Shown here one piece after another: positions 26,224-49,850 of a stretch of DNA of 64,000 nucleotides. The stretch's first letter is position 1, and every line of letters starts with the position of its first letter. A program made the position numbers and the translations under genes. Under the pieces are notes generated by a model, which had not been told where the DNA came from, did no database searches, and saw only the letters and a list, made by a program, of their open reading frames with translations. Source of the DNA: Apostichopus japonicus (taxonomy: Eukaryota > Echinodermata > Holothuroidea > Aspidochirotida > Stichopodidae); NCBI RefSeq assembly GCF_037975245.1, contig NC_092564.1, positions 9,833,984-9,897,983 on the forward strand, read 5' to 3'.

Positions 26224-26597
26224 TTGCACAGGGGCGGATCCAGGATTTTGAGAAAGGGGGGGCCGACATCCCGATGGTAGCACTTTAGTGATCTGCATCC
26301 TGGGGGAGGGGTCTAGGGGGAGGGGTTGTCCCCCTCCCCCTTGGAAATTTTTGGTTAACTGTGAGTGCTTAGATGCAAAATGGTGAAACATTTCGCCAAA
26401 AACTAGAAAAACCAGAAACGTTGCAGACACGCTTTTTTGTGCACATATTTTTTCTCGATAGACAGATATTTAACAACGCTCAACAGTGCATGTACAATGG
26501 ATACACTATTATTGCGTCGATTCGTTTTTTCTTTTGCGCGAAAATTATGACACCAGATTCACCCCAAGAAAAAACATAAAACAAGATATATTCAATG

Positions 26598-26616
26598 AGA
26601 TAATTATGATATACTT
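26598..26616 (+). repeat. Left target-site duplication of the Penelope-like insertion
   Basis: AGATAATTATGATATACTT occurs here and, identically, at 35,198-35,216 in the same orientation. The two copies bracket the inverted repeats of the Penelope-like element and mark where it entered the hAT-like element. Confidence 0.8.
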
Positions 26617-26619
26617 ATT

Positions 26620-26705
26620 AATGAAAGGGGGGGTGTAGGCGGTTTTACACTATCTAATGCAACGTAGTCGCTAAGAACCTGAAGTATTTTTAAGGGAGGG
26701 CCCGA
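26620..26705 (+). repeat. Left inverted terminal repeat of the Penelope-like element
   Basis: Runs from AATGAAAGG through GTGTAGGCGGTTTTACAC and CTGAAGTATTTTTAAGGGAG to GGGCCCGA. It is the reverse complement of 35,113-35,194, apart from a G-run length difference and a few substitutions. RT coding sequence begins directly at its inner edge. Confidence 0.8.
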
Positions 26706-27182
26706 TAATAAGCGGAAACGGATCACCGACCGAAAAAATATCGGAATTTGTGGACTATTTCTTGCTTCCTATTGTATTAAAACAAAGCACCTATGTGAAA
26801 GACACAAATCACATTCTGAAAATTGTGGAAGCCACCCCGTTACCAAAAGCAGTAGTACTTGCTACACTCGATGTCGTCGCCATGTATACCAATACTCCCC
26901 AAGAGGAGGCATTAGATATATGTCAAGAAGTCTATGAAAAGGCAGAAAAAAGCGAATATGGAATAAATAAAATATCTTCCATATCCATGCGCAAACTAAT
27001 TGAACTTATTTTTAACAAGAAACTGTTTCGAGTTCAATAACCAATTCTATCTAAAAAAGATCGGTTGCGCCATGGGTAGCCAAGCCTCTCCGGAAATCTG
27101 TGATATCGTCATGCATAGACTGGAAAACCAGATTTTACCGACAGATAATAAAATCTTAAAATGGCTCCGCTATAGAGATGAA
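26703..27182 (+). pseudogene. Penelope-like reverse transcriptase, fragment 1 (upstream of the DIRS insertion)
   Basis: Begins in frame at the repeat boundary with PIISGNGSPTEKISEFVDY, then LPKAVVLATLDVVAMYTNTP. The DVVxxYTN block is RT motif A in Penelope-like elements. After LIELIFNKKLF the frame changes near 27,029: one extra base shifts it, so translation would stop at an early TAA. It then resumes as EFNNQFYLKKIGCAMGSQAS, where GxAMGSxxSP is RT motif B. It continues to WLRYRD at 27,165-27,179, the start of the catalytic YxDD motif C, where the DIRS element cuts in. The frameshift and the insertion both disable it. Confidence 0.85.
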
Positions 27183-27296
27183 AATTCACAGCGCGTACTC
27201 CCTCACCTCATATAACCTATGCATTACCGTATTAACCTCGCTCTAGCATCTGGCAATTTGTCTGTATGTAAGTGTGGCCATCTCCCTTCCGTAATT
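27183..27296 (+). repeat. Left terminus and inverted terminal repeat of the DIRS element
   Basis: Bases 27,202-27,296 are the exact reverse complement of 33,174-33,268 (95 bp). The outermost part, 27,183-27,201 (AATTCACAGCGCGTACTCC), is unique to the left end. Its complement is found in the internal complementary region. Confidence 0.92.
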
Positions 27297-27561
27297 GCCA
27301 GCTGTTACGCAAGTATCGCTCTCTTATTGCTCTCACTAAATCCTAAGATTTCAATTACTTCGTCTAAAGTTTATCGTTGTTTTTGTAATTCTTTTTCATC
27401 TATTCAACGTCCTGCACGTTTGAACTGCTTTTTGTCTTTGAAACGTTTTTTTCTTTCGTGATTTTCGAACGTTTTTTTGGTTTACCTCGTGAACGTGGTT
27501 CACGTAGCGTGGCTAGGCCCGCACCTTAGTGTAGCGTTCTCCTAGCGTTTATTTACTTCCA

Positions 27562-27775
27562 CGTACAGCAGTCGTGTACGTGGGCTTACTTGCAGTTAAG
27601 TAACTGCTTTGTTTAGTTCTTCATACTGTTTTCGTACAGCAGTCGTGTACGTTTTCCCTTTGCAGTAAAGTAACTGCCTTGTTTATTTTTCGTACTGGTT
27701 TAGATACGAATTTCTTACTGTTCACGTACAGCAGCCGTGTACGTTTTCATTCTGCAGTAAAGTAACTGTTTTTAA
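27562..27775 (+). repeat. Three repeated hairpin units in the DIRS leader
   Basis: CGTACAGCAGTCGTGTACG (or CAGCAGCCGTG) occurs at 27,562, 27,633 and 27,725. Each is followed about 30 bases later by GCAGT(T/A)AAGTAACTGC or a close variant. Both motifs are imperfect palindromes, so each unit could form two short hairpins. They lie between the terminal repeat and the first ORF, where the promoter and 5' UTR of the element should be. Confidence 0.75.
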
Positions 27776-27856
27776 TTTAGTTTTCACAGCTTCAGGTCTC
27801 GGAGATTTCTCAAAAAATTTTTTCGGAGATTTCTCGAAAAAAAAAAAAAAAAAAGG

Positions 27857-29780
27857 ATGGAAAACTGCCGTTCTTGTAAGCAGTTCCGTCCGTTCAAAGC
27901 ATGGGATAAGCATGATTTATGCCCAAAGTGTCGCCCATGCGGGAGTAAGCAGACCTGCTCCATTTGCCAGGACTGGACCCAGGAGCGCTGGGATTTGATC
28001 GGTACCTGGCTGGCGGATAAAGCCGCAGAAAAAAGAAAGAAGGCGGCTTCCTCAAAGCAGGGGAAAAAGAAGCCGCCGGCGAAGGAACCCCAGGCGGCCA
28101 TAAGAGATGGCATAAGCCCTAAACATGGGGGAACGGAGGGCGCCATACAAGATGGCTCAAACCCTCCTCAGGAACGGGTATCCATACGAGATGGAGCTAA
28201 TTCCCGTGCGGCGTCAGCTCAGCCACGGCCGCGACCCCAGGAGGGTCCGTCCACTTCAGGCCACGTGGAGTCCAGAAGCCCCCGAAGACAAGCGGTGGCG
28301 GACTTATTTACTTCAACTCCGGGGTCGTGGGACCACAACCGGAGAGATTTCTCGGGGTTCTCCCCGGAGAAGTACGGAACGGCGCCAAAGCCGAAGCAGA
28401 AGCCGTACCCACAGCCGTAGCCGCGGTAGGAGCCGGGAAAGACACCGGCGACCTCGACGCAGGTCGAGGTCTGGCTCGTCGCCCTCGTCCTCGAGCGGAC
28501 ATTCTTCTGGGCGACACAGGGCCAAGAAACGAAAGAGGAGACAATCCCCAGATCCGGGGCAGGCTCTCCTTTCCCAGGTTAAAGACCTCCTGGGACAATT
28601 GCTACAAAAGCCGAGTCAACAGGACCCGGAACAACAAGGGGCTCCGTCAATTCCACCACAACCGGCGCCACCGCCAGCACCGGTTACGGACGATCTCGCC
28701 CCTGAGGAGGCCCAGGCAGATCCCTGGGACGACGTCTCCTCCAGAGCTGATGATGCGCTGTCAATCGCAGCTAGTGCCCGCCTCCTCAGTGGAGACTCCG
28801 AGGCGGAGGATGAAGAACCCTTACGGGGTACAGAAATTTCGGCGGAAGCCTTTGAGAAGGCGACGGCAGTACTCCGCAGAGTCCTCGGCTTCGAGGAAAG
28901 GGTGGATGCGCGGGCCCACGAGGGGCCGGCATCCAAACTCACTTTGAACGCGGCCACCCAAAAGCCTCGAGCCTCCATCCCGGTGGATGTGGAATGTAGA
29001 GAGCGGTTCGAGGCGGTGGCACAGGCGAAACGCTGGACAGCCTTCCAGCGATCAGCCCATCGCACTTTCCACGTGGGCGACGAAGACTGGGAAAGTCTTT
29101 TCACGCCACCCCAAATCCCGCCTCAAGTGAAGGAGAGACTTCGGTCGGCGGGTGCCTTAGACGGCAAAGACAAGTTCAGGGAGAAGGGTGCACAGACCCT
29201 AGAATCCTCCCTGTTCGACGTAGATAGGGCCTCCCGCGCAGGGATGAAGTACTCGTCAGCCCTATTACTTTTCGCCGAGCTATTGAACAGATCGTTCCAA
29301 CAGGCCCAGGCATCGGGTATCTCCCGCAAAGATACCGCCGCCATCATTGCCCTCCTGGGACCCGTTTCCAGGATGGTATTAGACCAGTTCGCCCGCGTCT
29401 CGGTTAAGGCTACCTTGACACGTCGGGACCTGGTTCTGAACTCCCTGAATTGGTCGTCCAGATCCACGGCGGACGCGTTCCGCAACTTACCGATCCTGGG
29501 CAGCGACCTCTTCGGCGGCAAGTTCGATGACAAACTCCGGGAGGAGGCAGAGAGAATGAAATCTCTGAGGGAGGCGGATGAGCACATGTCCTGCCCGACC
29601 TCATCCTCGCGCCCACGTTTTGACTCAAGACAAGGTAGCCGCTCAAGATCCAGCTACAGTCAGAGTCGGGGCGCTCCGCGAACGCAGCAACAATCCGCTC
29701 CTTCGCGGCCCGAACACAGGCCGTACCGCCCGCAATACCGCGGAAGCCGCGGAAGCCGCGGGCGCGGTAAACGGCCCTAG
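27857..29780 (+). CDS. DIRS ORF1 (gag-like), frame-disrupted
   Basis: The ATG at 27,857 follows a poly-A run. The N-terminus has paired cysteines (CRSC, CPKCRPC, CSIC) suggesting a zinc-binding module. A Lys-rich stretch and three spaced IRDG/IQDG repeats follow. That frame stops at about 28,420. The frame one base over is open from 28,125 to 29,780 and continues with an Arg/Ser-rich (SRSRSRTHSRSRG) segment. After that come a Gln/Pro linker, an acidic region, a likely capsid-like alpha-helical domain (about 28,850-29,560) and an Arg/Gly/Ser-rich tail ending GSRGRGKRP. The switch point lies near 28,340-28,420. It needs either a +1 shift during translation or a single-base indel in this copy. 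Nucleic-acid binding is expected from the RS and RG regions. The ORF overlaps the RT ORF at its 3' end. Confidence 0.75.
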
Positions 29781-31851
29781 GGATGCCCACCCCACCGTAG
29801 CGGCCAAGGCCAAGGTGGGGGGGCGACTAAGAGTTTTCTGGGCTCACTGGGAGAAAATCGACCCAGGAGCCTGGGTACTGGACGTGGTAAAAAGGGGCTA
29901 CGAGATAGAGTTCTCGTCTACCCCACCCCAATATGGCCTCTTCGCAACCACGCCAGTACCCGAGATACCGGAAAAGCGGGCCGCCCTCGAGGACGAGATC
30001 AACAGTCTTCTCAAAAAAGGCGCCATTACGCGGGTCACCACCGCAAACGCGGACGGCCCCCTCTTCCGGTCCTCGTTCTTCCTCACGCCGAAGAAGAACG
30101 GGACTTGGAGGCCCATCCTGAACCTCAGACCTCTCAACAGGAGGTTCATCCGACCGGAGAGGTTCAGGATGGAGACTCTCACATCAATCCTCCACCTACT
30201 GCGCCCAGGGATGTGGGCATCCTCCGTCGATCTAAAGGATGCCTACCTACATATCCCCATCCGACTCGAGGACCAGCGGTTCCTCGCGTTCAGGTACAAG
30301 GCCATAGATTACCGCTTCACAGCGCTACCATTTGGCCTCTCCACGGCACCCAGGGTTTTCACCAGGGTAACAAGGGCGGTCCTGGCTCACCTCCGCCGAA
30401 ACGGGGTAATGGTGTTCGCCTACCTAGACGATTGGTTAGTACTCGGCAACTCCCAACAAGGGGCTCTCGCCAGTACAAACGCCACCGTCTCCCTCCTGAC
30501 GAAACTGGGGTGGTTAATCAATGTCGAGAAATCCAACCTCGTGCCCACTCAATCGATCATATACTTAGGGGCCCGTCTCGACCTCGCCAGCGGCATGGTC
30601 TACCCGACGGCCGAAAGAACGGCAAGCCTAGTGGCCACGGCCAGAAAAATACTAGGCAATCGGAATACCCCAGCGCTCACGTGGCAGCGCCTATTGGGGA
30701 AGATGGCGAGCTTCACAGACCTTCTAGACCTGTGCAGACTCAGAATGAGGCCGCTCCAGCGGCACCTCCTCAAACACTATGCCCCGGATCGGTCGTCGGC
30801 GGCAACGCCAATCCCACTTCCAACGGGGCTTCGCCCGTTTCTCACGTGGTGGGCAGAGTCGGACAGGATCGCGGCAGGGCGACCTTTCCGGAACCCAGCC
30901 CCTACAACGTCGATCACGACGGATGCCTCCCTCAGCGGCTGGGGAGCGGTATGGGGCACACACACAGTTGCCGGCGAATGGGCGGAGCCCGAGAGGGGTC
31001 TCCATATCAATATTTTAGAGACGGAAGCGGTCCTGAGGGCCGTACGTCACTGGGCAACCCACCTAACGGGCCACACTGTCACGGTCCGGTCAGACAACAC
31101 CACGACCGTGGCGTATATCAACCGTCAAGGGGGCACTCGATCCCTGGCCCTCCTACGCAGGACATGGGACCTGCTCGTCCTCTGCGACTCCCTTCGGATC
31201 GGCCTACGGGCGTCCCACCTAGCAGGGAAAGACAATATACTGGCAGACGCACTGTCCAGGGGGTATCTAGACAATGGGGAATGGGAGCTCTCCCGAACGT
31301 GGTCCGACCACATATTCCACCTGTTCGGCAGGCCGTCCGTCGACATGTTCGCGACGGCCAAGAACGCCAAACTCCCGACGTTCTGCTCCAGATACCACGA
31401 CCCGCAGGCCTGGAAGACCGACGCCCTAGTCGTCTCATGGGCGGGCCTCTCCATGTACGCCTTTCCCCCACTGGGATTACTCCGCAGAATTCTCACGATG
31501 CTTCGGGACGTGGAAGCGGACATGCTTTTGATCGCACCTTGCTGGCCCAATCAAGCATGGTTCCCACTCATCATCGAAATGCTGGTGGACCTACCATACA
31601 AATTCCCACCGGCCGCCAAGCTCCTCTCCCAACGGAGCGGCCACATAACCCACCCCGACATCACGAGCCTCCATCTAGCTGCGTGGAAACTCTCCGGCTC
31701 TCGCTCCAGACAGCGGGGTTTCCACCGGAGGTTGCGGACATTGCAGTGGATGCCCGCCGGCAGTCCACGGTTAAAACATACGATTCTAGACTGCACCGAT
31801 ACTATGTTTGGGCCGGGGACAACGCTGCTGATCCCGTGGAGGCCTCAGTAG
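29578..31851 (+). CDS. DIRS ORF2: reverse transcriptase / RNase H polyprotein with C-terminal extension
   Basis: The open frame runs 757 codons, overlapping gag by about 200 bases in a different frame. The conserved part starts near LRVFWAHWEKIDPG. RT landmarks are FFLTPKKNGTWRPILNLRPL, SSVDLKDAYLHIPI (motif A), ALPFGLSTAPRVFTRV (motif B) and VFAYLDDWLVLG (catalytic YLDD). RNase H landmarks are TTDASLSGWGA, the ILETEAV glutamate, RSDNTTTVAYIN and DALSRG. The last about 150 residues (SVDMFATAKNAKLPTF, MYAFPP, IAPCWPNQAWFP) match the region of DIRS elements usually annotated as a methyltransferase-like domain. I cannot confirm that activity. All catalytic positions I can identify are present. 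The frame ends after HPDITSLHLAAWKLSG, overlapping the recombinase ORF. Confidence 0.92.
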   Translation: MSTCPARPHPRAHVLTQDKVAAQDPATVRVGALRERSNNPLLRGPNTGRTARNTAEAAEAAGAVNGPRDAHPTVAAKAKVGGRLRVFWAHWEKIDPGAWVLDVVKRGYEIEFSSTPPQYGLFATTPVPEIPEKRAALEDEINSLLKKGAITRVTTANADGPLFRSSFFLTPKKNGTWRPILNLRPLNRRFIRPERFRMETLTSILHLLRPGMWASSVDLKDAYLHIPIRLEDQRFLAFRYKAIDYRFTALPFGLSTAPRVFTRVTRAVLAHLRRNGVMVFAYLDDWLVLGNSQQGALASTNATVSLLTKLGWLINVEKSNLVPTQSIIYLGARLDLASGMVYPTAERTASLVATARKILGNRNTPALTWQRLLGKMASFTDLLDLCRLRMRPLQRHLLKHYAPDRSSAATPIPLPTGLRPFLTWWAESDRIAAGRPFRNPAPTTSITTDASLSGWGAVWGTHTVAGEWAEPERGLHINILETEAVLRAVRHWATHLTGHTVTVRSDNTTTVAYINRQGGTRSLALLRRTWDLLVLCDSLRIGLRASHLAGKDNILADALSRGYLDNGEWELSRTWSDHIFHLFGRPSVDMFATAKNAKLPTFCSRYHDPQAWKTDALVVSWAGLSMYAFPPLGLLRRILTMLRDVEADMLLIAPCWPNQAWFPLIIEMLVDLPYKFPPAAKLLSQRSGHITHPDITSLHLAAWKLSGSRSRQRGFHRRLRTLQWMPAGSPRLKHTILDCTDTMFGPGTTLLIPWRPQ

Positions 31852-32744
31852 ACCAGGTGGCGGCCTTCCTACTCGAACTCTTCCGAGAAGGGAAGCAAAT
31901 AAGTGCAATTAGAAATTACCGCTCCGCAATAGCAGCGGTTCACAGCGGATTCTCGGATGGCTCCTCAGTAGGAACCAACCCGGTCCTCCGCCAGGTCTTA
32001 AGGGGCATGTTCCACAGACGCCCTCCCAGGCGCCGCCTGGCCCCGTCATGGGCCCTCCACGAGGTCCTGACGACCCTTGTGGGCTCTCCGTACGAGCCGT
32101 TACACAATGCTCCATTGGACAAACTAACACACAAAACTCTGTTTCTGATCGCGGCCGCCTCTGCCAGGCGCAGAAGCTGTCTCCACGCGCTCACCCTCCA
32201 ACGGGGGTTCACGAGGTTCGAACCAGGAGGAGTCAGATTACTACCTGACCCTCACTTCCTCCCAAAGAACCAATCAGTAACCTTTACCCCGAACGAGATC
32301 TTCCTACCGAGTCTGTCACAAGCCTCGTCAATCGCGGAAGACAAGCGCTGGTGCCCTGTCCGAGCCCTTAAGTGGTACATAGAGAGGACCAAACAGCTAC
32401 GTACCTCGGACAGGCTCTTCATTTTACCGCGGTCGCCCTACACCCCGGCCTCAAAGGACACCATTTCACGGTGGATGGCCGACTTAATTCGTGCCCACAC
32501 CCAGCCTGGGGAACCCGTCCGGGCGCACGACGTCCGAGGCCACGCCACGTCCAGGGCGTGGTTCCGGGGGGTTCCCCTGGAAGATATTATGAAGGCGGCG
32601 GCCTGGAAGACCCCGTCTTCCTTTGTCGCCTGTTATCTCACAAACACCCCTGCCACGGAAGGGGATTTTGCCCGAGCGGCCCTAGGTCCGCCGCCCGCGA
32701 GATCCTCGACCCACCGCCAGGGCTCCTGTGTCACAAATGCATAG
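31683..32744 (+). CDS. DIRS ORF3: tyrosine recombinase
   Basis: This frame is open from well upstream (30,105). The conserved protein begins near VETLRLSLQTAGFPPEVADI and overlaps the end of the RT ORF, so it is probably reached by frameshift or reinitiation rather than by its own clear ATG. The N-terminal SAM-like core-binding region is QSTVKTYDSRLHRYYVW to AIRNYRSAIAAVHSG. The catalytic domain shows the first arginine in AAASARRRSCLHAL, the His-x-x-Arg box in RAHDVRGHATSRAW, and the nucleophilic tyrosine in FVACYLTN. This enzyme replaces the DDE integrase of LTR elements and inserts a circular DNA without target duplication. The frame reaches a normal stop just inside the internal complementary region, with no disruption seen. 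Confidence 0.92.
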   Translation: METLRLSLQTAGFPPEVADIAVDARRQSTVKTYDSRLHRYYVWAGDNAADPVEASVDQVAAFLLELFREGKQISAIRNYRSAIAAVHSGFSDGSSVGTNPVLRQVLRGMFHRRPPRRRLAPSWALHEVLTTLVGSPYEPLHNAPLDKLTHKTLFLIAAASARRRSCLHALTLQRGFTRFEPGGVRLLPDPHFLPKNQSVTFTPNEIFLPSLSQASSIAEDKRWCPVRALKWYIERTKQLRTSDRLFILPRSPYTPASKDTISRWMADLIRAHTQPGEPVRAHDVRGHATSRAWFRGVPLEDIMKAAAWKTPSSFVACYLTNTPATEGDFARAALGPPPARSSTHRQGSCVTNA

Positions 32745-32833
32745 GTTATATGAGGTGAGGGAGTACGCGCTGTGAATTCCCCAAACCTTAACCGGTTTGT
32801 GAATTAACGAGCGACGTACTCACCTCATATAAC
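32736..32833. repeat. Internal complementary region of the DIRS element
   Basis: The first part (32,736 to about 32,778) is the reverse complement of the left terminus. The second part (about 32,777-32,833) is the reverse complement of the right terminus. They are fused at GTGAATTCCCC. In the DIRS replication model this region templates the junction of the two ends, giving a circular DNA that the tyrosine recombinase inserts. The match to both ends is essentially perfect, which argues that this copy is young. It starts just before the recombinase stop codon. Confidence 0.92.
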
Positions 32834-33173
32834 ATCCCGACCCGCCTCCCCACTATGGGGGACCTCGCGGACGGAACCATACAACCACGTCGGATACCCT
32901 CCTCGGATACTAGGGGAACTGGCCACACAGATATGACCATGTGACGGCCTTTCCCCCCAGGAATTTTCGAGGGATGTCGTGGGGTCCCGCCTACACCCAC
33001 CGACGACCCACTCTGGACCCACTTCGGGCCCACTCAGGACCCACCTGTCACCCACACCAGCCCACCTAGGGCCTCTTCAGGTGAGAATGTTTTTGGTTGT
33101 ATCCTCGGGGTTTCCGCCCCTTGGTCGATCCTCTCCCCCTTCTCCGTCCGGTGCCGCACCATTGCGGCCTGGA
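32834..33173 (+). other. DIRS 3' untranslated segment
   Basis: A GC-rich region between the internal complementary region and the right terminal repeat. It includes a low-complexity run of GGACCCAC-type repeats (about 33,000-33,065). No reading frame of significance was seen. Confidence 0.6.
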
Positions 33174-33309
33174 AATTACGGAAGGGAGATGGCCACACTT
33201 ACATACAGACAAATTGCCAGATGCTAGAGCGAGGTTAATACGGTAATGCATAGGTTATATGAGGTGAGTACGTCGCTCGTTAATTCACAAACCGGTTAAG
33301 GTTTGGGGA
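33174..33309 (-). repeat. Right terminus and inverted terminal repeat of the DIRS element
   Basis: Bases 33,174-33,268 mirror the left repeat. The outer 41 bases, from TACGTCGCTCG to GGTTTGGGGA, are unique to the right end, and their complement also lies in the internal complementary region. Confidence 0.92.
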
Positions 33310-33853
33310 TTCTATTGCATTACGACGGTTCACCTCAGGAACTTGAACAACTAGTAAACAGGTTGAATGAAATTCACCGCTTCTTAAAGTTTACGGTAGA
33401 AATATTACACACCGAGGTAACATACCTAGATTTGAAAATCTTCAAAGGTCCAAGGTTTGAAACCAATGGGTTATTAGACACCAAAGTCTACACCAAACCC
33501 ACGGAAACCTTCCAATACCTCGACAGAAACTCTGCACACCCACTTGCCACTTTTAAAGGCTTCATTAAAGGGGAAGTCTTACGATACGCACGTCTCTGTA
33601 ACAATGAGACTGATTTCTTACAGAAAAAGAATGCGTTCACAGAGAAACTGTTACTCCGTAACTATAAGAAAGAGGAAATTGCCTCAGCCACGAAAGGCAT
33701 AAAATTTGAAAACCGTGGGCAATACCTCACTACCAAACCTAAACAAAAGGAACCACCAATGGTGTTCAAGCTTACCTATACACCCCATATCAAAACCACG
33801 CATTTGAAAAATGTACTTTTGAAACATTGGCACTTAATCTTGCAACACGCGGA
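33310..33853 (+). pseudogene. Penelope-like reverse transcriptase, fragment 2 (between DIRS and MITE)
   Basis: Resumes in the same frame as fragment 1 just after motif C (ILLHYDGSPQELEQLVNRLN). It continues with EVTYLDLKIFKG, TKVYTKPTETFQYLDRNSAH and GEVLRYARLCN. These hydrophobic YLD and YTKPTDxxQYL-like blocks are the conserved RT thumb/C-terminal region of Penelope-like and telomerase-related RTs. There are no internal stops over about 180 codons. It is cut at LILQHA by the hAT-like MITE. Confidence 0.85.
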
Positions 33854-34704
33854 CAGGGGCGTAGCGAAGGTTTTTTTGTTGGGGGGTATGGAGGATTTGA
33901 TTTGCCGACGGATCTGGAAGTGGTGACTGAAATGGGGGAGGGGTCTAAATTTTTAGTTTTGAAACGTCCTTAGATGCAATCTGGTGCATATTTTAAGTCA
34001 AATTTGGCACCGTAGAATTTCCATTTCGATATTATTTTTATGGCAGTCGGCAGAAGAAGAATTAATTGGGACCAATTATCGAACTGTGTTTTCTCTTTCA
34101 CCGATCGTTGAAATAGTGAAACTTCGTGATGAAAATGTTCAGAAAACTTTCCGGTAATGAGAAATAACAACATTCATTGATATACAAGCGAGAAACGTTA
34201 AAAATTGTGTACAATTCGTGAGCCATGTCCTTAAGTTTTCCACGGAGAACGAATGACATCTGCGATGACGTCATTCTGAACAGAGGATAATAACAACACG
34301 TTGTCACACGATAGCACGACTCATGGGCTGCGGCCTATACGGAAGCCTTTAATTCCATTTCTTTCACTGAGTTGCCGGCGATTCTGGCACTCGTCTAGCT
34401 GAGCCTGGCTACAGTAGCTATACTGACGGCCGTGACATTATCAGTTATTTGCCGAGAGGTTTTTAACTTGCAGGCGTCGGGTGATTGGATTGGTGAATGA
34501 GTTTATCAGATGAATAACTGGAAAATCGAAATAACCGATAAAGAAGCTCCCGTTCTCCTTTTCTCTATTCAGCTTTCCTTCTTTCTTCCCCTTCCGCTCT
34601 CTTCACCTTTTCTCCTTTTGCCGACAGACCCAAAATTTGCCGACAGCAACCAAATTATTGGGGGGTGTGACACCCCCACACCCCCCCCGCTCGCTACGCC
34701 CCTG
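33854..34704. mobile_element. hAT-like MITE (851 bp) inserted in the Penelope-like RT
   Basis: It has perfect 14-bp terminal inverted repeats, CAGGGGCGTAGCGA and its complement. The 8-bp flanking duplications are CACGCGGA (33,846-33,853) and CACGCAGA (34,705-34,712), with one mismatch. CAGGGGCGTAGC ends and 8-bp duplications are characteristic of hAT transposons. No transposase is encoded. The subterminal block CCTTAGATGCAATCTGGTGC is shared, with changes, with the outer hAT-like element (about 26,370) and the fragment at about 63,630. Its removal restores the host element's reading frame. Confidence 0.88.
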
Positions 34705-34872
34705 CACGCAGAATTATCCAAACTGTTTCCAAAAGAACCGATTCTAGCCTACACAAGGGCCCAAAATCTCAAAGATTTACTTATTAACTCAAGGTTTCAT
34801 ACTAACGAAGAATCAGCTGACTCTCAAGGTTCACACGAAGCTCTTTTAGATGCTCCTATAGCTGCACTATGA
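34705..34872 (+). pseudogene. Penelope-like reverse transcriptase, fragment 3 (C-terminal end)
   Basis: From the MITE's right target duplication, the frame reads HAELSKLFPKEPILAYTRAQ, then NLKDLLINSRF, and stops at 34,870-34,872. Taking out the MITE and one 8-bp duplication restores a continuous frame from fragment 2. The FP-P-x-AYTRAxNLKDLL block is typical of the region after the RT in Penelope-like elements. No endonuclease domain follows. Confidence 0.8.
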
Positions 34873-35112
34873 GTCCATAAAAACTCGTGCACAGAAAATA
34901 GATGCATTTTGAGAACGAGACGCCCAGGCCGAATATAAAATATTCAAAGGCTACTACTGATGAAGCTCCTCCTATAAAGTTTGAGAGCGGAAACCGGTCT
35001 AGTTGGTCATAAGAACCTACACTAGTCTCTCCTACTATTAACAGTACACTCAATTCACCTAATAGGTGCAATTATGTTTCACCACGAGGAGCATGCTATA
35101 AGTTCATGTTCC

Positions 35113-35194
35113 TCGGGCCCTCCCTTAAAAATACTTCAGGTTCTTGGCGACTACGTTGCGTTAGATAGTGTAAAACCGCCTACACCCCCTTTCA
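35113..35194 (-). repeat. Right inverted terminal repeat of the Penelope-like element
   Basis: The complement of the left repeat, starting TCGGGCCCTCCC and ending CCCCCTTTCATT just inside the target duplication. Bases 34,873-35,112 between the RT stop and this repeat are non-coding 3' sequence of the element. Confidence 0.8.
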
Positions 35195-35197
35195 TTC

Positions 35198-35216
35198 AGA
35201 TAATTATGATATACTT
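35198..35216 (+). repeat. Right target-site duplication of the Penelope-like insertion
   Basis: An exact 19-base direct repeat of 26,598-26,616, immediately outside the right inverted repeat of the element. Confidence 0.8.
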
Positions 35217-35504
35217 GCTAACTGTGCATTGATTTTCCCTGACAGTAATAGTCAGCACTATAGTACTGAGCCGTATCTAATTAATACGTGATGTCGCGTA
35301 GGCCTGATAATTGCCTTAGTTTCAAATTTGGAATAAAAACGATCGCGTTTCAGGGAAGAGCAGCTGGATATATATTAGGCTTTTCTTTCACCAAGTTATG
35401 CCTATTAGGAATTTGAAGTACTCCCACATAAAAAAAACGCAACTGATTTCCAAAAAGGGGGGGCCGGGGCCGGGTCGGCCCCCCCTGGATCCGCCCCTGT
35501 TGCA

Positions 35505-48780: not shown

Positions 48781-49850
48781 ACAATGAATTATCAATATGT
48801 AAAGCTGAATAACACTGAATGATCAATATGTAAAGCTGTAGAAAATATCACTGAATGATCAATATGTAAAGCTGTAGGAAATATTACTGAATGATCAATA
48901 TGTAAAGCTGTAGGAAATATTACTGAATGATCAATATGTAAAGCTGTAGGAAATAACAATGAATGATCAATATGTAAAGCTGTAGGAAAATAACACTGAA
49001 TTATCAATATGTAAAGCTGTAGGAAATAACACTGAATGATCAATATGTAAAGCTGTAGGAAATAACACTGAATGATCAATATGTAAAGCTGTAGGAAATA
49101 ACACTGAATGATCAATATGTAAAGCTGTAGGAAATAACACTGAATGATCAATATGTAAAGCTGTAGGAAATAACACTGAATGATCAATATGTAAAGCTGT
49201 AGGAAATAACACTGAATGATCAATATGTAAAGCTGTAGGAAATAACACTGAATGATCAATATGTAAAGCTGTAGGAAATAACACTGAATGATCAATATGT
49301 AAAGCTGTAGGAAATAACAATGAATGATCAATATGTAAAGCTGTAGGAAATAACAATGAATGATCAATATGTATAGCTGTAGGAAATATTACTGAATGAT
49401 CAATATGTAAAGCTGTAGGAAATAACACTGAATGATCAATATGTAAAGCTGTAGGAAATAACACTGAATGATCAATATGTAAAGCTGTAGGAAATAACAC
49501 TGAATGATCAATATGTAAAGCTGTAGGAAATAACACTGAATGATCAATATGTAAAGCTGTAGGAAATAACACTGAATGATCAATATGTAAAGCTGTAGGA
49601 AATAACAATGAATGATCAATATGTAAAGCTGTAGGAAATAACAATGAATTATCAATATGTATAGCTGTAGGAAAATAACACTGAATGATCAATATGTAAA
49701 GCTGTAGGAAATATTACTGAATGATCAATATGTAAAGCTGTAGGAAATAACACTGAATGATCAATATGTAAAGCTGTAGGAAATAACAATGAATGATCAA
49801 TATGTATAGCTGTAGGAAATAACAATGAATGATCAATATGTAAAGCTGGA
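48781..49850. repeat. 36-bp minisatellite, about 30 tandem copies
   Basis: The unit is GAAATAACACTGAATGATCA followed by ATATGTAAAGCTGTAG. Most copies are identical; variants show AACAAT or ATTACT for AACACT and TATAGC for TAAAGC. Because 36 is a multiple of three, several minus-strand frames stay open for over 200 codons (repeating HIDHSVLFPTAL), but these are by-products, not genes. The high identity points to recent expansion or ongoing homogenisation. Confidence 0.95.

Follow-up and report, generated by a model that had tools for sequence, protein, structure and literature searches.

A nest of four transposable elements in Apostichopus japonicus is probably a ready-made composite transposon later entered by a DIRS retrotransposon

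RESULTS

The question raised by the locus

A 64-kb stretch of Apostichopus japonicus contig NC_092564.1 (hereafter the window, whose positions serve as coordinates) contains four mobile elements nested within 9.3 kb. The initial annotation took these as four separate landings, suggestive of a permissive site near the 5′ side of Atos. Downstream of the nest, on the + strand, lies an Atos-like gene with DUF4210 and Chromosome_seg domains, which we take to be Atos markers. Whether the nest records four local insertions or a history that mostly took place elsewhere was examined by comparisons within one assembly, GCF_037975245.1. With a probability of roughly 0.93 for the whole history, our reading is that an outer element, a Penelope-like element (PLE) and a MITE make up a single non-autonomous composite transposon, about 3.1 kb long and present in about two hundred copies, of which one landed here and then received a DIRS element.

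Architecture of the nest

The outer element starts with CAGGGGCG and has perfect 16-bp inverted ends (CAGGGG...CCCCTG). Within it lies the PLE, itself host to the MITE (851 bp) and to a complete DIRS element of 6126 bp; without the latter the copy measures 3145 bp. All boundaries are present in the sequence, and the element identities and nesting first proposed were largely right, as was the order where one was given (the PLE entering the outer element, and both MITE and DIRS entering the PLE). The features of the composite are as follows (strand given where assigned).

26224-26228, left 5-bp target duplication of the composite, TTGCA, in host DNA (read from the sequence; rule common to 31 of 34 copies)
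26229-35499, + strand, composite transposon copy: outer element with 5-bp target duplication (putatively hAT5-like) and all inserts
26229-26244, outer left terminal inverted repeat, CAGGGGCGGATCCAGG
26598-26616, left 19-bp target duplication of the PLE (left copy present in 20/20 fetched composites, with one substitution in L018)
26617-35197, + strand, PLE, apparently 5′-truncated, interrupted by DIRS and MITE
26629-26705, PLE terminal inverted repeat, left arm
33846-33853, left 8-bp target duplication of the MITE, CACGCGGA
33854-34704, 851-bp hAT-like MITE inside the PLE, 14-bp ends CAGGGGCGTAGCGA
34705-34712, right 8-bp duplication of the MITE, CACGCAGA
35113-35189, PLE terminal inverted repeat, right arm
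35198-35216, right 19-bp target duplication of the PLE
35484-35499, outer right terminal inverted repeat
35500-35504, right 5-bp target duplication of the composite, TTGCA (read from the sequence)

The PLE is bounded, as first described, by a 19-bp direct repeat, AGATAATTATGATATACTT, and by inverted repeats; the latter, originally put at about 85 bp, are 77 bp long ungapped (97% identity) and slightly longer with gaps. Its coding remnants lie around 26750-27182 and 33309-33853, and Pfam gave no reverse transcriptase match in these two fragments. RVT_1 was detected in two of three PLE frames from close copies (L036, E 2e-9; L040, E 7e-7) and was absent from the third (L042), and no Pfam match to GIY-YIG was obtained in the PLE frames examined, all of which are fragments. 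The element thus combines a reverse transcriptase (in close copies), inverted ends of pseudo-LTR type and a short target duplication. On its 5′ side, L040 carries an inverted piece of the PLE 3′ end, of other length.

Comparison of the PLE frame with NCBIfam, solved structures and phage records gave weak or no matches, to group II intron- and retron-type reverse transcriptases. A hammerhead ribozyme was considered for the PLE tail, which has a CTGATGA...GAAAC core at 34957-34994, and was rejected: Rfam gave no match and shuffled sequences folded equally well (z 0.19). The core was found in the window and L036 only, among 28 sequences scanned.

Outer element, PLE and MITE recur together across the genome

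At no more than one mismatch, the assembly contains 204 left ends of the outer element, 172 outer–PLE junctions and at least 79 PLE–MITE junctions; reversed-pattern controls gave 0. Outer arm, PLE and MITE are collinear, with the same spacing, at other places. On contigs C1-C12, an exact left end lies upstream on the same strand of 38 of the 42 PLE–MITE junctions (mean for random shifts, 0.01); 37 of the 38 were found by a 0.5-3 kb rule, and the window copy was added by hand because the DIRS element lies in between. Twenty left ends were then read, every fifth of 100 listed among the 204 (exact matches on C1-C14, with L011 and L020 included), so that the sample is systematic rather than random. 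The results showed the PLE in 20/20, the MITE in 19/20 and DIRS, on both strands, in 0/20. The sole copy with no MITE within the piece read was L020; L071, in which MITE and PLE tail are inverted, is counted among the 19.

Mean pairwise divergence between copies was 1.3-2.0% in all six parts, and is skewed towards low values, above all in the left arm, because L001-L020 were picked as the best matches to the window's arm. Copies of less than 90% coverage were left out, leaving of 21 copies 21 for the left arm, 17, 14 and 14 for the PLE segments PLEa, PLEb and PLEc, 13 for the MITE and 13 for the right arm. In a PLE tree the composites split from the other copies with modest support (0.78), the outside copies being L039, L040 and L041 only.

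Because outer element, PLE and MITE appear to travel as one unit, only two insertions, the composite and then DIRS, are needed at the window locus, and the argument for a permissive site near Atos is thereby removed. Four independent insertions would agree with the four boundaries, all of them real, and with a position upstream of an Atos-like gene, but this reading is scarcely credible, given that three of the four layers co-occur at many other places with shared junctions. In addition, seven of 38 other fetched composites carry a secondary insert of 0.36-1.3 kb, as judged by break points, implying that re-entry is common.

The outer ends are flanked by 5-bp duplications that differ between sites

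Target duplications were scored from exact outer ends, where the right end may shift by one base. The results showed a 5-bp duplication in 31 of the 34 copies scored as two-ended, with 30 distinct sequences; none of these 31 copies has 8-bp identity, and the flanks beyond differ. As for the exceptions, L061 has no duplication, L007 lies in a local repeat and matches over 8 bp, and the 'right end' of L001 is an end-like sequence before its own PLE tail, so that this copy should not count as two-ended. The frequency and variety of the duplications suggest that the composite was moved by means of its outer ends. Multiplication through segmental duplication, recombination or gene conversion among repeats would suit a composite without known transposase, and exchange between copies could even out divergence; however, duplications that start exactly at the outer ends in 31/34 copies, in 30 different sequences and with differing 8-bp flanks, make this highly improbable, and transposition by the outer ends is preferred.

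The hAT-like label first given to the outer element stood as regards the 16-bp perfect ends and TTGCA flanks, but not as a standard 8-bp hAT. With CAGGGGCGGATC-type ends and a 5-bp duplication, it would best fit the hAT5 group of hAT DNA transposons, for which PMC12730594 gives 5-bp target duplications. The same paper ascribes CA..TG ends and duplications of 2-5 bp to the CACTA/Mirage/Chapaev/Transib group, so that the CA..TG ends and 5-bp duplications of the outer element suit both. Membership of that second group is the less likely assignment, though a serious one: the outer arm and the MITE, which has an 8-bp duplication, have the common start CAGGGGCG, and in other composite copies a subterminal stretch of 80-90 bp is alike in the two (about 78-84% identity). 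This likeness favours a hAT-type relative for the outer element.

MITE-free copies have an unoccupied site

The 851-bp hAT-like MITE was correctly placed at 33854-34704 by the initial annotation. It has 14-bp ends, and its flanks, CACGCGGA and CACGCAGA, had gone unnamed as an 8-bp duplication. The change in the right copy was found in no other copy read at the MITE joints; composites with both joints read have the 8 bp at either end of the MITE, in some cases with one substitution. The suggested search for an unoccupied site succeeded within the same genome: the 8-bp target is single in 7/7 fetched MITE-free copies (with one substitution in L037), and of 511 candidates the best 40, which were scored, all span the empty site. 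MITE end matches numbered 232, against 79 in PLE context, a rough comparison since the patterns differ in reach; from these end-match counts, the MITE probably also occurs outside the composite.

Two of the MITE-free copies read, L037 and L042, have the outer element and PLE, and in both the left arm and the PLE are longer than in the main family. We infer that MITE entry into the PLE preceded most of the spread of the composite. That L037 and L042 are instead excision products, MITE entry predating the divergence of PLE copies, is very unlikely. Such MITE-free outer-plus-PLE copies number only two, which leaves this reading some room, but both have a clean site with a single CACGCGGA (CCCGCGGA in L037) and no footprint, five PLE copies that lie outside the composite show the same clean site, and the longer left arm and PLE also set the two apart.

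The DIRS element probably entered the copy after it had landed

The DIRS element interrupts the PLE of the window copy.

27183-33308, + strand, full-length DIRS1-like retrotransposon, interrupting the reverse transcriptase frame of the PLE at GATGAA/ATTC
27857-29780, + strand, two overlapping upstream frames (27857-28420 and 28125-29780), probably the gag region by position
29578-31851, + strand, reverse transcriptase and RNase H frame (RVT_1, E 2e-21; RT_RNaseH, E 5e-5, just under cut-off)
31650-32744, + strand, tyrosine recombinase frame (Phage_int_SAM_1, E 1e-4, just above cut-off; Phage_integrase, E 0.01, below cut-off)
32736-32833, internal complementary regions, pairing with both outer ends (arms 32736-32778 and 32778-32833, 100% complementary)

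The joins agree within 1-2 bases with those originally given (27,182/33,310). The element has inverted ends with complementary regions, reverse transcriptase/RNase H and recombinase, and no target duplication; the empty site reads GATGAA/ATTC. DIRS1-like elements join at a trinucleotide such as ATT, and in eight of nine other DIRS copies the right flank begins ATT, AAT or AGT; the ninth has an altered right end. No Pfam match was obtained for the upstream frames, nor for a methyltransferase domain at E 0.1 in the frames examined. G+C is about 60% in the coding part versus about 36-40% in the flanks.

An unoccupied DIRS site, likewise sought on the first suggestion, is intact in 17/20 other fetched composites of the same genome; of 206 candidates the best 40, which were scored, all span it. 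DIRS was absent, on both strands, from 45/45 other fetched pieces of composites and PLEs. The number of DIRS elements expected by density within any composite is 0.04 to 0.19 for 40 to 199 DIRS copies; the single case found, picked after the fact, is unusual, and by density not extraordinary.

Order of events

Two copies with PLE and without MITE point to the order outer element, PLE, MITE, amplification, landing at the window locus, DIRS. First, the PLE would have inserted into the outer CAGGGGCG-ended element by target-primed reverse transcription, duplicating 19 bp. A hAT-type MITE with an 8-bp target duplication would then have entered the PLE. A transposase from an unseen autonomous partner, presumably acting in trans on the 16-bp outer ends, may have spread the package to about two hundred places with a 5-bp duplication at each move, the passengers being presumably neutral cargo, while shorter sub-families arose. 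One copy would have landed at 26224/35504, and a young DIRS element would have recombined into its PLE without target duplication. The shared junctions at many places, 5-bp duplications that differ between sites, MITE-free intermediates and empty DIRS and MITE sites on which this order draws are read directly from the sequence.

Empty sites were found for DIRS and MITE, but neither a PLE-free outer element nor a second copy of the host empty site. A PLE-free outer element gave 0 matches in the genome at up to 3 mismatches, so the evidence for the first step is the 19-bp duplication. The bridging search gave one spanning match, L021, among the best 40 of 406 candidates, and as scoring covers these 40, more diverged PLE-free relatives could be hidden. 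L021 was rejected as a PLE-free ancestor: its left part is N and its join keeps the last PLE bases, TTCATTC, beside the 19-bp sequence, suggesting a probable internal deletion of the composite rather than an empty site. For the host site the assembly has no second copy: each side matches at 100% at its own locus only, and the flanks have elsewhere only partial matches of at most 92% identity. No insertion polymorphism was seen in the one assembly.

Given that the 204 left ends of the family yielded no copy free of PLE, the cargo could conceivably have made the carrier successful: the outer element would have spread only after it gained the PLE, because PLE or MITE sequence aids transposition or escape from silencing, and the stack of three unrelated elements would have become a new selectable mobile unit with sub-families of its own. 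We regard this reading as unlikely.

DISCUSSION

A readable nest need not be a local history: most layers here were probably built elsewhere and arrived ready-made. Counting such layers as independent hits would overstate insertion hot spots and misdate elements. In this case a class II element appears to have taken two passengers, one a class I element and the other a second DNA element, to about two hundred sites, and there are intermediates that make the steps of composite-transposon assembly testable within one genome.

The DIRS element resembles DIRS1-like retrotransposons, as described in PMC3266345, in its inverted ends, complementary regions that adjoin at a short circular junction, reverse transcriptase/RNase H and tyrosine recombinase, and lack of target duplication; it differs in the roughly 60% G+C of its coding part relative to the flanks and in having no methyltransferase domain detected in the frames examined. 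Like Pen2 of Adineta vaga (PMC3846280), the PLE copy is bounded by inverted terminal pieces (pseudo-LTRs in Pen2) with the target duplication outside. Unlike Pen2, whose duplication is 8-10 bp, the sea-cucumber PLE has one of 19 bp, no GIY-YIG was detected in its fragmentary frames, and it is carried by a DNA transposon. The outer element shares 5-bp target duplications and short inverted ends with hAT5 elements (PMC12730594), a likeness by ends and duplication length alone; unlike them, the composite has no visible transposase and carries a retroelement and a MITE.

None of the titles surveyed was recognised as an account of a composite of this kind or of PLE amplification within a DNA transposon, which does not imply absence from print. 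What is new is a hitchhiker composite family with sub-families; the kind itself is already known. In Pack-MULE-like capture, non-autonomous DNA transposons carry captured sequence (for capture in plants, see the review PMC13317346). As there, the cargo of the composite would be passively amplified between mobile ends; unlike there, it consists of two nested transposable elements that were probably gained by insertion.

Structure of the nest and its occurrence across the genome

The initial annotation described four transposon insertions by different mechanisms and suggested a permissive site close to the 5′ side of Atos. All of the boundaries it named were found in the window sequence, as listed here.

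26229-35499, outer element: 16-bp perfect inverted ends, TTGCA on both sides
26617-35197, Penelope-like element (PLE): 19-bp duplication, inverted ends 97%
27183-33308, DIRS: inverted ends and internal complementary regions
33854-34704, MITE: 14-bp ends, 8-bp duplication CACGCGGA, with a single change in the right copy in the window

In-silico removal of the DIRS restored GATGAA directly followed by ATTCTATTG. The same sequence was present in 17 of the 20 other copies compared, with no match in L005, L008 and L011. The frame across this empty site in the 17 copies is KWLRYRDEILLLYDGSP, which we take to resemble a reverse-transcriptase core motif.

One assembly (671.58 Mb, 35 contigs) was searched, with matches on C1-C23. 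The results showed that matches to the outer arm, the DIRS-free PLE joint and the MITE coincide with equal spacing on many contigs, for example at C8:4468173, 4468933 and 4469671, respectively. In 20 fetched copies of this composite, those components that are present (left arm, PLE pieces, MITE, right arm) follow one common order, each at ~98% identity to the window; several copies are interrupted by additional inserts or stop where the fetched piece ends. Pattern counts at ≤1 mismatch gave 204 left ends, 172 outer-PLE junctions and 79 PLE-MITE junctions genome-wide (reversed-pattern controls, 0 for all three); the figure of 79 is an undercount, because 76 of these junctions already spend the one mismatch. 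On contigs C1-C12, an exact left end lies upstream on the same strand for 38 of 42 PLE-MITE junctions (37 by a 0.5-3 kb rule, plus the window counted by hand), against a mean of 0.01 when junctions were randomly shifted. The remaining junctions are C8:35329064, C8:35334032, C11:9524117 and C11:6244652; the last is 6.7 kb away from the left end of copy L020 and may belong to that composite. Across the 45 pieces of composites and PLEs that were fetched, neither strand gave a DIRS match.

Systematic sample and composite forms

A sample not picked by similarity was taken as every fifth of 100 listed left ends (of the 204), comprising 18 newly fetched pieces, L011 and L020. PLE sequence was present in 20/20 and MITE sequence in 19/20, forward in 18 and, in L071, as a MITE piece inverted together with the PLE tail relative to the arm; no MITE sequence was found within the piece read for L020. 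The right arm fell inside the piece for 14/20. Two composite forms were seen. Seven of the 18 newly fetched pieces (L062, L063, L064, L067, L070, L072 and L073) have the first 156 PLE bases running directly into the MITE; L078 resembles this short form, but its break point is different. Additional tandem copies of approximately MITE bases 42-153 occur in 7/8 short-form pieces, the exception being L067. The composite thus falls into sub-families, which is what a propagating family would show.

Order of events

The MITE site was spanned without a MITE by all of the 40 best scored of 511 candidates; PLE copies lacking the MITE are common. In seven of these 40 (L036-L042), the 8-bp MITE target sequence is single, with one substitution in L037. 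L037 and L042 retain the outer arms and the same 19-bp PLE duplication, lack the MITE, and have a longer left arm and a longer PLE; they look like the stage preceding MITE entry. A tree of PLE parts, from which L036 and L038 were left out, placed the three independent PLE copies (L039-L041) and the MITE-free composites L037 and L042 apart from the MITE-bearing composites, with modest support (0.78). A PLE-free outer element was not found in the genome at ≤3 mismatches. L021 is a short outer-element copy across the PLE site, beside a run of N, and is probably an internal deletion of the composite.

The mean pairwise difference among composites was 1.3-2.0% in all six parts, as expected if the parts spread together. 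Of 45 DIRS matches, 20, window included, were 100% identical over 2901 bases, and the DIRS looks much younger than the composite.

The permissive-site claim

Judged from break points, 7/38 fetched copies (L001, L002, L005, L010, L012, L013 and L076) carry a secondary insert, 0.36-1.3 kb long, that shows an overlap of 5-9 bp at its ends. Since other composites also gather inserts, nest depth is no evidence for a special site. Under even scatter, a DIRS in any composite was computed to be expected 0.04-0.19 times. The layers and boundaries of the proposed nest stand, but not four local insertions: two suffice at this locus, and with seven of 38 other composites also re-entered, the permissive site is not upheld. 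The nest is best described, from its sequence, as a copy of a non-autonomous composite DNA-transposon family, with PLE and MITE as cargo, into which a DIRS has recently inserted. Known enzymes alone account for the mechanism; what is noteworthy is that a retroelement has hitchhiked to some two hundred sites and that intermediates are present.

The position of the nest on the 5′ side of the gene was confirmed by two domains to its right:

44.6-44.9 kb, + strand: DUF4210
47.6-47.8 kb, + strand: Chromosome_seg

Three other frames gave no Pfam match; by these two domains the gene is Atos-like. A tandem repeat array at 48792-49713 is open on the - strand, with a repeating YFLQLYILII-type frame.

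Transposition by the outer ends

Among 46 copies examined, including the window, 34 were scored as two-ended by a script tolerating ≤2 errors in the ends and a 1-base shift of the right end. A 5-bp duplication was found in 31/34, with 30 distinct sequences; identity over 8 bp was seen in none of these 31. L061 has no duplication, and L007 lies within a local repeat, its flanks matching over 8 bp. L001 was rejected as two-ended, its 'right end' being an end-like sequence before its own PLE tail. The window's TTGCA is therefore the normal family signature and not a decayed 8-bp hAT duplication. The TTGCA flanks of the hAT-like element originally proposed are thus real, but the standard 8-bp hAT duplication does not apply.

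Comparison with known elements

Groups of hAT with 5-bp duplications are described as hAT5, and a CACTA/Transib assemblage as having CA..TG ends and 2-5 bp duplications (PMC12730594). The outer arm and MITE share the common start CAGGGGCG and, in other copies, a subterminal stretch of 80-90 bp at ~78-84%; this similarity favours a hAT rather than a CACTA/Transib assignment for the outer element.

The PLE fragments in the window alone gave no RT match, and RT was matched in two of three sister-copy PLE frames (L036 and L040; none in L042). No GIY-YIG domain was seen in the PLE frames searched. Inverted terminal pieces and target duplications are described for Penelope elements (PMC3846280). A hammerhead-like core in the PLE tail (CTGATGA...GAAAC, 34957-34994; also in L036) was discarded, since Rfam gave no match and folding lent it no support.

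The DIRS coding region (27857-32744) has 59.6% G+C versus 36-40% in the flanks, a composition that raises the question of a horizontal origin, and its many near-identical copies suggest recent activity. In L057 and L058, a DIRS copy has an altered right end, beyond which the sequence flanking it on the left is repeated. The DIRS frames matched RVT_1, RNase H (weakly) and a tyrosine recombinase. DIRS1-like elements are described as making no target duplication when they integrate, which they do at a trinucleotide that is often ATT, and the structure of the DIRS in the window is as described there for such elements (PMC3266345).
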